Shown here: positions 32,852 to 59,927 of the stretch, in pieces
Layout of the letters: the number at the start of each line of letters is the position of its first letter
How positions within the stretch are numbered: the stretch's first letter is position 1
Assembly: GCA_947176235.1 (NCBI GenBank)
Contig: CAMWPM010000001.1
Span: forward strand, 30,780 to 94,779
Direction: 5' to 3'
From: an uncultured Bacteroidales bacterium
Lineage (GTDB): Bacteria > Bacteroidota > Bacteroidia > Bacteroidales > Muribaculaceae
Length of the DNA: 64,000 bases
Position numbers and translations under genes: made by a program
The notes under the pieces: model-generated
Databases searched by the model: none
The model's input: only the letters and a program-made list of their open reading frames with translations
What the model was told of the DNA's origin: nothing

Positions 32852-33289
32852 ATGATTAAAAGAATTCTTTCAATAGCCGGTCGTCCCGGTCTTTTCAAGC
32901 TCGTTAGTCAGGGTAAGAACATGCTCATTGTTGAAGCACTTGCCACCGGAAAACGTACTCCGGCTTATACACACGACAAGGTTATTTCTCTTGCCGATGT
33001 AGCTATGTACACCACCGATGAAGAAGTTCCTCTCACCGACGTATTCGAGTCCATCAAAAAGCTCAACGACGGCAAACCCGTTGATGTTAAAGCTTTAGGT
33101 GGCGACGCCGAGATTCGTGCCTACTTCAAGGAAGTGCTTCCCAACTTCGACGACGATCGCGTCTACACCAACGACATCAAGAAAGTTTTCAACTGGTACA
33201 ACGCCCTGATCGCCGCAGGTATCGACACGTTTAAGGATGCCGAACCCGACACCGCAACTGAATCTTCTGAATCTCCCGCTGAAGCATAA
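32852..33289 (+). CDS. DUF5606-type conserved Bacteroidetes protein
   Basis: MIKRILSIAGRPGLFKLVSQGKNMLIVEAL...DIKKVFNWYNALIAAGI. Confidence 0.75.
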   Translation: MIKRILSIAGRPGLFKLVSQGKNMLIVEALATGKRTPAYTHDKVISLADVAMYTTDEEVPLTDVFESIKKLNDGKPVDVKALGGDAEIRAYFKEVLPNFDDDRVYTNDIKKVFNWYNALIAAGIDTFKDAEPDTATESSESPAEA

Positions 33290-33310
33290 TACTTATCACC
33301 CTTGATACAA

Positions 33311-33344
33311 AAAGGCGATGCGTCCATCCTACGCATCGCCTTTT
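33311..33344 (+). terminator. Terminator hairpin, copy 1
   Basis: AAAGGCGATGCGT-CCATCCT-ACGCATCGCCTTT(T); identical to copy 2 at 34126-34159. Confidence 0.85.
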
Positions 33345-33450
33345 ATTTGTCACAACTTTCCCTCAAAGATTGGATTATCGCAAAAATTTCGTATATTTAC
33401 GCCAAAATATCAGTTTAGTAATATATTAAACCATCCTTTTATTTTTTGAA

Positions 33451-33744
33451 ATGTGCACATCCAAAGAATGTATTAGTATTCTTAAAAAAAATTTACCCCA
33501 AATTCAATCTGAGTATGGAGTTACAGGAATGTGCCTTTTTGGCTCTGTTGCTCGTGGAGACAATCGCCTTGATAGCGATGTCGATATATTGGTCGATATG
33601 CCTCCTAAGCTATTGCTTATGAGTTCACTTAAAGATTATTTGGAGCAGATTCTCCATTCCTCCGTTGATCTGATTCGTCGCCACGCTCATCTTTCCCCCA
33701 AATTTATTTCACATATCTCTGAAGATGCAATTACAATTCTCTGA
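33451..33744 (+). CDS. MNT-domain nucleotidyltransferase (MntA-like antitoxin)
   Basis: GSVARGDNRLDSDVD = GSX10DXD signature; overlaps the HEPN gene by 20 bp. Confidence 0.9.
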   Translation: MCTSKECISILKKNLPQIQSEYGVTGMCLFGSVARGDNRLDSDVDILVDMPPKLLLMSSLKDYLEQILHSSVDLIRRHAHLSPKFISHISEDAITIL

Positions 33745-34120
33745 CTCTGATAAGAAGAAAGCTCTTCAGACACTTGAATCTATTGAAGAGACAATTTTAC
33801 ATCTGATTGATTGGAATAAAAACATTTGTTCTTCTGATGACTTTTATATCTCTCAGAATGGTATTCAGTTACTTGCTGCCGATTGTACTTTGATCACTGC
33901 TATAGGTGAAGGGATCAATCGGATTAATCGAGTTATTCCTGATTTTCTAATGTTGAATTTTCCGGATATTCCTTGGAAAGCTATAATAGGGATGAGAAAT
34001 CATATTGCTCACGGATATTTCGAAATTGACGCTGATATAGTTTTTGAAGCAGTCAAAAAAGATATACCACCTCTTCTTGAAGCACTTCATTCTGCAATCA
34101 ATAAGCTAAATCACTCATAA
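33725..34120 (+). CDS. HEPN-domain (HepT-like) toxin
   Basis: MRNHIAHGYFEID = RX4HXY signature. Confidence 0.9.
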   Translation: MQLQFSDSDKKKALQTLESIEETILHLIDWNKNICSSDDFYISQNGIQLLAADCTLITAIGEGINRINRVIPDFLMLNFPDIPWKAIIGMRNHIAHGYFEIDADIVFEAVKKDIPPLLEALHSAINKLNHS

Positions 34121-34125
34121 TTGAT

Positions 34126-34159
34126 AAAGGCGATGCGTCCATCCTACGCATCGCCTTTT
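34126..34159 (+). terminator. Terminator hairpin, copy 2
   Basis: 34-bp identical copy of 33311-33344, loop included. Confidence 0.85.
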
Positions 34160-34178: not shown

Positions 34179-36734
34179 TTATTTCGCCTTCGAATAAGGA
34201 GTCTCTTCTCCGAAAAGACGTCCCTTCTCCCATCCTCCGGCATCAATCACGATTTTCGTGAATATCACGTCAGGATCCTTGGGGTTTAGCTCAAGCGTGT
34301 GATGACCGTTTTCATCTGGTTTACCGACAGCCGTCTTTATTTCGTTGTCAACGACCCTTTCGGCTACCGTAGGATAGAACACCGTATAGATGTTTTCGGG
34401 ATCCTCATTCAGATTACCGTTAAAGTTTACCGTAACAGGAATTTGATTGTCAAGTTTCACGCTGAATCTATGTCCTTCCGGTCTGGCGAATGCAAGCGTC
34501 GAACGAGTGATAACGTGGATAGTGACCGAATCTGTCTGCTCTGGCAATGTGAACTTATAGGTCAGCATAGTTTCTTCTCCGGGGGAAAGATCAGTACGAG
34601 GCGTAACCACTAATCCGCTAAGGGTTCTGCCCGTTCCGTCAATCACTTTCCACTCGCATCCTTCCTTTGTAGAAGCGTTATTGAAGTGTTCAGCCTCGAT
34701 CACTACCGCACCGTTCTTGTATTCCGATACGAATCCCCCGTTCTGTCCATCTTTGATTCTAACCACCTCTGGCATAATGTCTGCAGGAAAATTGTCATTC
34801 CATATTTTGTATCCGATATGCTTTTGGCGCATCATCCCGTTCCACTTTCCTTCCGCAGTCTCGGTATTGTATCTTTCTTCAAGTCTCCGGTCTTTTTGAA
34901 ATGCTTTTTCTGCCCTGTCGGCCCAATCATTTGCGCGTGTATCTCCACGTTCGGCAAGGAGTCGGTTCATTGCCACCGCATAGTACAGGTCATAGACGTT
35001 TGCCATAGCTTGTACGGGGAAAAGCACCAGCTCATCATAAGATGCTTTTTGGGCTTCCGGGAGTTGGATATATATGTCAAGGGCGTCAGCTTCAAGTCTC
35101 TTGAAATCATCGGCAGCCCGTTGCCAATCCCCGGATTCAACATTATAGGTGTTTGCATCAAGAAGTTCTGCTGTTGACCGCCCTGCGAGTCTGCCGTAAC
35201 GGTCGATTATTTCAGCAATTTCCTCGGCATGCTTCTCTCCGAATTGCTGAGCGGCGAATGCCCGTGTATGATTTATTATCGTCGAAGCGTCATATTTTTT
35301 CGGATTCCACGCAAGGTCCATAAAGAGCGTGATTGGATACTCCATCGGCTTGAGATCGCCCACATTAAGTATCCACAGTTTATCCACTCCGTACTCTGCC
35401 GTCATCGTTAGCTGTTCTGCCATGTGGGCTGATGGCGTCACATTAAGCCATTTGGTATTTCTTGGGGCTCCGACGTAGTCCACGTGATAGTACATACCCC
35501 AGCCTCCGGGATGATTTCGCTCTTCCTCCGTTACAGGCAGACGCCTCACGTTTCCCCAGTTGTCATCACAAAGAAGATATATCACGTCGTCAGGAGCTCT
35601 CAGACCCTTGTCATAATAATCAAGCACTTCCTTATAGAGAGCCCACACTTGTGGCGTTTCCTTCGCCGGTTTGCCGGTTTCCTTTGCAATGATCTTCCGC
35701 TGATTTTTTATGATGCGTTCAAGTAGTTTCACGTCTGCATCCTCGCTCATCGCTTCATCCCCGTCTCCGCGCATTCCTATTGTGATCACGTCTTCTGTAT
35801 TACGGGCGCGCCTCATTCCATCTATGAAGAACTTGTCGATCGTCTTTTGATTTGTCGAATAGTTCCATGCGCCGTTCTCAGCTCTGTGACGCGCCCATTC
35901 CTGATGGTTGCGTGCCATCGGCTCATGATGTGATGTGCCGATTATCAGTCCGATGGAATCTGCGGTTGCTGAGTTTTTTTCATCGTCGGCATAGAATGCC
36001 CAACTCCACATAGCCGGCCATAGGAAGTTTCCGCGCAATCTCATTATCAGTTCTCCAACTCGTTTGTAGAAACGGTGGTCGCCGTATTTTGTCCCGTAAG
36101 TATTCTCCACCCAGCCTGTAAGGCATGGTGCTTCGTCATTTAGAAATAATCCTCTGTATTTGACTGCAGGTTCTCCAGCGCTGTAAGTCCCTCTTTTAAT
36201 CGAAAGGTTGGTCTGTGGCTCGATCGCTACGTCTGCCCAGTCCCACCATGGCGACACTCCTATCTGTTCCGATAACTCATAGCATCCGTAAGCAGCTCCC
36301 CTACGGTCACTGCCCACTATCACAAGTGCTTCTTCCACACCATCCCAAGGATTTTTCAAAGTAGTCATCACATATTGTTCGCGATGCCCATGTATTGAAT
36401 CCACATTCATCAAGCCGCGGGTCTTGAGATCTTTCACGAAATCCGATTCGGTAGTTCCTACAGCGATAACAGGTCCTTGCGCCGGGATAACTCCAAGAAT
36501 TTCAGCCTCTTCACCCCCGACTCGTCTAAAATCCCCCGCAAGGTTCCCCACTGCGATTTTTACGGCTGAATTAGCCTTAGGATCAACAAAAATTGGTGTT
36601 GCCTTTCCGTTAGCCAACAGTGGAAATCTGTCATTGGCAAGTCTTGTTTCCGTTATTCCCTTATGATCTTTTGCAAAGACGGGGATTGATAATGTCACTG
36701 TTGCCAGTAAAGTAAGTAAGGTACTTTTATGCAT
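34179..36734 (-). CDS. Glycosyl hydrolase 115 family protein (putative xylan alpha-glucuronidase)
   Basis: 851 aa with signal peptide; YRGLFLNDEAPCLTGWVENTYG; YYHVDYVGAPRNTKWLNV; LWILNVGDLKPMEYPI. Confidence 0.85.
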   Translation of the reverse strand: MHKSTLLTLLATVTLSIPVFAKDHKGITETRLANDRFPLLANGKATPIFVDPKANSAVKIAVGNLAGDFRRVGGEEAEILGVIPAQGPVIAVGTTESDFVKDLKTRGLMNVDSIHGHREQYVMTTLKNPWDGVEEALVIVGSDRRGAAYGCYELSEQIGVSPWWDWADVAIEPQTNLSIKRGTYSAGEPAVKYRGLFLNDEAPCLTGWVENTYGTKYGDHRFYKRVGELIMRLRGNFLWPAMWSWAFYADDEKNSATADSIGLIIGTSHHEPMARNHQEWARHRAENGAWNYSTNQKTIDKFFIDGMRRARNTEDVITIGMRGDGDEAMSEDADVKLLERIIKNQRKIIAKETGKPAKETPQVWALYKEVLDYYDKGLRAPDDVIYLLCDDNWGNVRRLPVTEEERNHPGGWGMYYHVDYVGAPRNTKWLNVTPSAHMAEQLTMTAEYGVDKLWILNVGDLKPMEYPITLFMDLAWNPKKYDASTIINHTRAFAAQQFGEKHAEEIAEIIDRYGRLAGRSTAELLDANTYNVESGDWQRAADDFKRLEADALDIYIQLPEAQKASYDELVLFPVQAMANVYDLYYAVAMNRLLAERGDTRANDWADRAEKAFQKDRRLEERYNTETAEGKWNGMMRQKHIGYKIWNDNFPADIMPEVVRIKDGQNGGFVSEYKNGAVVIEAEHFNNASTKEGCEWKVIDGTGRTLSGLVVTPRTDLSPGEETMLTYKFTLPEQTDSVTIHVITRSTLAFARPEGHRFSVKLDNQIPVTVNFNGNLNEDPENIYTVFYPTVAERVVDNEIKTAVGKPDENGHHTLELNPKDPDVIFTKIVIDAGGWEKGRLFGEETPYSKAK

Positions 36735-59896: not shown

Positions 59897-59927
59897 AGCG
59901 ATGTGCCCCATGCACATCGCTTTTTTT
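59897..59927 (+). terminator. Terminator of rbr
   Basis: AGCGATGTGC-CCCAT-GCACATCGCT then T-run. Confidence 0.85.

Follow-up and report, generated by a model that had tools for sequence, protein, structure and literature searches.

A MNT-HEPN toxin-antitoxin pair between identical terminator-like hairpins, and target-derived direct repeats around small accessory units in Muribaculaceae

Chromosomal toxin-antitoxin (TA) pairs are patchily distributed and have been called mobile, which raises the question of how two genes can move with no recombinase of their own. In Neisseria, minimal mobile elements place varied small cargos at a conserved locus, likewise without a recombinase, and are exchanged through homology of the flanking genes. 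The term minimal mobile elements appears in PMC3898611. Small presence/absence segments (20-500 bp), 10-18% of which are flanked by direct repeats (counted from 5 bp and mostly <30 bp), are described in PMC2884548 and its references and are thought to be products of illegitimate recombination. Among TA pairs, MntA/HepT is marked by the signature motifs GSX10DXD and RX4HXY (PMC7641770, in which the term 'direct repeat' has no occurrence).

The stretch of DNA analysed here (the window; 64,000 nucleotides of contig CAMWPM010000001.1 from an uncultured Bacteroidales bacterium of the Muribaculaceae) carries a pair of this kind between two copies of a 34-nt hairpin (Table 1). The pair was found to resemble MntA/HepT in its PF01909 and PF01934 domains, in the overlap of its genes (20 nt) and in both motifs, which are intact in MNT (GSVARGDNRLDSDVD) and HEPN (RNHIAHGY) and each present in 55 of the 56 family loci, whereas its NCBIfam equivalog scores (37.6 and 30.1 bits) did not reach the cut-off of 60 set for each. 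Judged on sequence, the pair is predicted to be a member of MntA/HepT (type VII), belonging to a divergent lineage and not to the named equivalog itself. The MNT protein also matched the PADLOC candidate phage-defence family PDC-S09 (3.8e-22). A possible -7 element, called by the Bacteroidetes promoter consensus, lies upstream of the pair, and the homologue at locus L186 is preceded by a similar string, TTTCGTATATTTGCG. MNT and HEPN were the only open reading frames between the repeats, with no transposase or integrase. Nucleotide similarity searches gave no match among 50,697 phage records and only plasmid relatives of <60% identity, and no RNA family in Rfam matched the hairpin/TA locus.

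Table 1. Features of the TA locus, numbered from the first nucleotide of the window
Feature	Position	Strand	Basis or remark
DUF5606/DUF6852 gene, left neighbour, intact	32852..33289	+	Pfam PF18347, PF21186
Left 34-nt copy	33311..33344	+	Intrinsic-terminator-like hairpin where the DUF5606 terminator belongs
Proposed inserted unit between repeats, 781 bp (815 bp start to start)	33345..34125	+	
Possible promoter -7 element of the pair (cgTATATTTAc)	33390..33400	+	Sequence inspection
MNT antitoxin (MntA-like nucleotidyltransferase), 97 aa	33451..33744	+	PF01909 9.4e-11
HEPN toxin (HepT-like RNase), 131 aa	33725..34120	+	PF01934 6.1e-15
Right 34-nt copy	34126..34159	+	Starts 5 nt past HEPN stop codon
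GH115 gene, right neighbour, convergent, intact	34179..36734	-	Pfam PF15979, PF17829

As originally noted, the two 34-nt copies (AAAGGCGATGCGTCCATCCTACGCATCGCCTTTT) are identical, loop included (0 mismatches), while 0 such repeats were expected from 100 dinucleotide shuffles. Each copy folds into a stem of 13-14 bp closed by a loop of 7 nt, at about -22 kcal/mol and with a z of about -6 to -7, and a T-run accompanies the stem, giving a strong terminator-like fold. TTGATA stands upstream of both hairpins (33302-33307 and 34121-34126), as had been noted, but not in a common register, the second overlapping the first A of its hairpin so that alignment needs a 4-nt gap (CAAA); beyond hairpin and TTGATA the flanks of the two copies are dissimilar. 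In many relatives, hairpins of other sequence lie immediately 3' of DUF5606. It is probable that a ~0.8-kb accessory unit was inserted recently between DUF5606 and GH115 and duplicated the DUF5606 terminator, in a mode that would be general among Muribaculaceae; for the window's own copy, we infer this origin by insertion with target duplication.

No further copy of the 34-mer (allowing up to 3 mismatches) was found in the 2.48-Mb genome of the window, nor any copy in 396 other Muribaculaceae genomes, and an abundant dispersed 34-mer or REP repeat was thereby ruled out. It is the stem type that is dispersed: hairpins of the form GCGATGYG...CRCATCGC, most of them followed by a T-run, occur at 14 sites in this genome (L144-L157; 0 with the reversed pattern as control), three of which are in the window (the two copies and 59897-59921), with 7 and 6 sites in two other family genomes and 0-2 in nearly all others sampled. 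The loops of these hairpins all differ except within the window's pair, so that a local duplication or conversion is required. Conversion could have acted if the terminators of DUF5606 and of the TA pair, both of this common stem type, had been made identical by gene conversion or template switching, in which case the repeat would not stem from insertion. Both the recurrence of the stem type and the limitation of identity to the hairpin, outside which the sequences differ, fit this explanation; it is nevertheless unlikely, as no other hairpin in the genome has its loop in common with another, a module-free relative has a single hairpin at the L231 locus (see below), and conversion cannot explain the non-terminator repeats around most other pairs.

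These other pairs were obtained by gathering HEPN relatives from 397 Muribaculaceae genomes, several of which are metagenome-assembled, and comparing their surroundings; the 500 nt before MNT were compared with the 500 nt after HEPN, and a direct repeat was counted if it scored at least 18. Direct repeats of 21-88 nt were observed to bracket 12 of 56 related MNT-HEPN pairs, the unit lengths at the other bracketed loci (745-969) being similar to that in the window, while cross-paired flanks gave a best score of 14 (336 trials). Brackets were found in 1 of 981 equal-sized intervals elsewhere (Fisher P about 2e-15), which were mostly core-gene neighbourhoods and thus under-sample other accessory genes, and in 1 of 307 off-module intervals at the same loci (Fisher P about 7e-10). 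Inverted repeats were not enriched, with one palindromic match (score 17) at the 56 loci and, palindromes aside, one match (L305) at 82 loci. The majority of modules (79%) have no bracket, which weighs against insertion with target duplication and is attributed to repeat decay or another route of arrival. The bracket sequences are locus-specific and have no common motif, except at L185 and L207; there a dispersed element was considered and rejected, the two being one orthologous insertion in two species. One of these species has two further ATPase-like genes inserted, one on each side.

Most brackets proved to be gene 3' ends, promoters and other intergenic DNA, not terminators. At L186, two convergent genes have their stop codons within the 21-nt repeat (TGA-G-TCA), so that neither loses its end. 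A conserved gene, which we take to be DUF2795-like, has its last 23 nt repeated after the module at L230, and in another genus (L226) the module lies 3' of the same gene with a diverged second copy of the gene end in the corresponding place. Another gene end, presumably of an UpxZ-like gene, recurs around the module at L197. Promoter DNA forms the repeat at L211 and L216, and at L216 it is the DNA upstream of gltX, which occurs before MNT and again before gltX. Terminators seem to be one type of landing site: terminator hairpins form the repeat at the MNT-HEPN locus L231, in the manner of the window, and at L289, and a hairpin also brackets the module at L210. The original prediction of the hairpin as a possible recombination or insertion hotspot is not supported by this variety in so far as the hairpin would be a required recombination signal. 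That the hairpin might act as an attachment or recombination site dedicated to a system of terminator-bounded cassettes is suggested by these four hairpin brackets, by part of a hairpin in a fifth (L346) and by the capture of both MNT-HEPN and RhuM at the DUF2795-like gene end/terminator, but this is hardly credible given that no motif is common to the brackets, most are not hairpins and the units are without an integrase. The 3' end/terminator of the DUF2795-like gene was seen to be an insertion hotspot, followed by MNT-HEPN in four genera and, in a fifth genome, by RhuM (L230, L226, L217, L215 and L254).

Two brackets extend into the module, the right repeat including the start of MNT at L204 and the start of a small gene upstream of MNT at L224. 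For these two, a tandem duplication of which one copy was lost may be the origin instead. The same history for the window, a duplication of terminator and TA pair with later deletion of the second pair, would draw on these two repeats, but is very unlikely, since the window's right repeat holds no TA sequence and the empty sites at L230 and L231 indicate arrival of a unit and not loss of a second copy. Small open reading frames lie beside MNT-HEPN at both loci (L224:2279-2509, 77 aa; L204:2404-2598, 65 aa) and are possible extra members of the unit.

Empty sites were recovered at these two loci. The joined flanks of L230 align continuously over the junction in many family members, with a single copy of the repeat. 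At L231, the order hairpin-module-hairpin in genome G082 compares with one hairpin and no module in the congener G061, where the upstream and downstream genes match; G082 has ~350 nt more of unrelated sequence on the right side, because of which L231 is not a single clean event. For L186, only the upstream gene was found within the genus and not the neighbour pair. For the window itself no empty site was found: DUF5606 adjoined GH115 in none of about 100 DUF5606 loci (matches of at most 75% protein identity), so the synteny of the window is not kept. The prediction that the duplication accompanied acquisition of the TA pair is thus supported by homologous pairs bracketed far above background and by single-repeat empty sites at two loci.

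Bracketing was also observed around other cargo. Pairs of the unrelated ParE/YoeB toxin family were bracketed at 7 of 26 loci, or 6 if a low-complexity case is left out, among them L289, where a 37-nt hairpin stands on each side of the pair, the two copies differing in one loop base. When 1.97 Mb of the window's genome were scanned without bias for exact repeats of at least 20 nt, 16 repeat pairs were obtained, most within coding paralogues; the few non-coding brackets enclosed the window's TA pair, a YhcG/DUF1016 PDDEXK nuclease (L364:11223-12763, contig C11; 27-nt bracket overlapping the 3' end of an acyltransferase gene) and a 145-aa hypothetical gene (L346:12531-13099, contig C4; 21-nt bracket made up of the loop plus the 3' arm of a hairpin that resembles a terminator), the others being a tRNA-like repeat where a contig ends and a single dispersed repeat. 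The hypothetical protein had no Pfam match. At L364, the regions to the right of both 27-nt copies resemble diverged homologues. A threshold of 18 nt added a DUF4143/AAA_14 ATPase within a 19-nt direct repeat (L388:17604-18856, contig C34). In genome G202, RhuM lies 3' of the DUF2795-like gene, the downstream region of which is present on both sides of RhuM. At L381, five housekeeping genes lie between two copies of a 37-nt sequence, which was classed as a dispersed repeat rather than an insertion.

The common outcome is a unit of 0.5-1.5 kb with copies of target DNA of variable length on both sides and no recombinase inside. In the window, a ~0.8-kb TA unit would have entered the gap between DUF5606 and GH115 and copied its landing sequence, the DUF5606 terminator, with the left hairpin still terminating DUF5606 and the right hairpin now terminating the TA transcript; with one terminator copy for each, neither neighbour would be broken. 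More generally, one- or two-gene units would enter intergenic DNA or gene ends and leave direct repeats of variable length derived from the target, their cargo being MNT-HEPN and ParE/YoeB pairs and, in single cases, the YhcG nuclease, RhuM and the DUF4143 ATPase. The mechanism of integration is unproven, as neither a recombinase nor a common end sequence was found in the bracketed units. Short-homology recombination or staggered-break repair, not a transposase, would be the presumed means, with three candidate routes: a circular intermediate could integrate by a single crossover at short homology, homology-facilitated illegitimate recombination could act, or DNA could be captured at a staggered break that is then filled in. 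Retro-insertion of a transcript is disfavoured, since the unit seems to have a promoter of its own.

Like insertion sequences and transposons, the units have direct repeats of the target at both ends, but they differ from these in having no transposase, no terminal inverted repeats and direct repeats of no fixed length (21-88 nt). Unlike integron gene cassettes, they have no common recombination site. The occurrence of both MNT-HEPN and RhuM 3' of the DUF2795-like gene is reminiscent of the minimal mobile elements of Neisseria, but those occupy fixed loci, whereas here the target sequence is duplicated and the loci vary. The segments of PMC2884548 are not TA cassettes, whereas here repeats of 21-88 nt surround whole functional accessory units. 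No description of the bracketing pattern was found in a literature search whose coverage was mostly outside subscription journals.

It is conceivable, though we put it forward only tentatively, that Muribaculaceae harbour a class of recombinase-less cassettes (TA, YhcG, RhuM, DUF4143) which share one integration route, duplicate long and variable lengths of target where genes end or at promoters and terminators, sparing the neighbours, and are kept by addiction. A unit lost by recombination between its repeats would leave the site as it was before, which makes retention by addiction a plausible reason for the prominence of TA pairs; toxin addiction may help such deletable bracketed units to persist. 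Local direct repeats at between one in five and one in four TA loci, together with empty sites in sister species, provide a physical trace of insertion, and the bracketing repeats offer a way to find recent insertions. Because recombination between the repeats would cleanly delete the toxin pair and restore the site, the persistence of bracketed pairs would be measurable and addiction testable.
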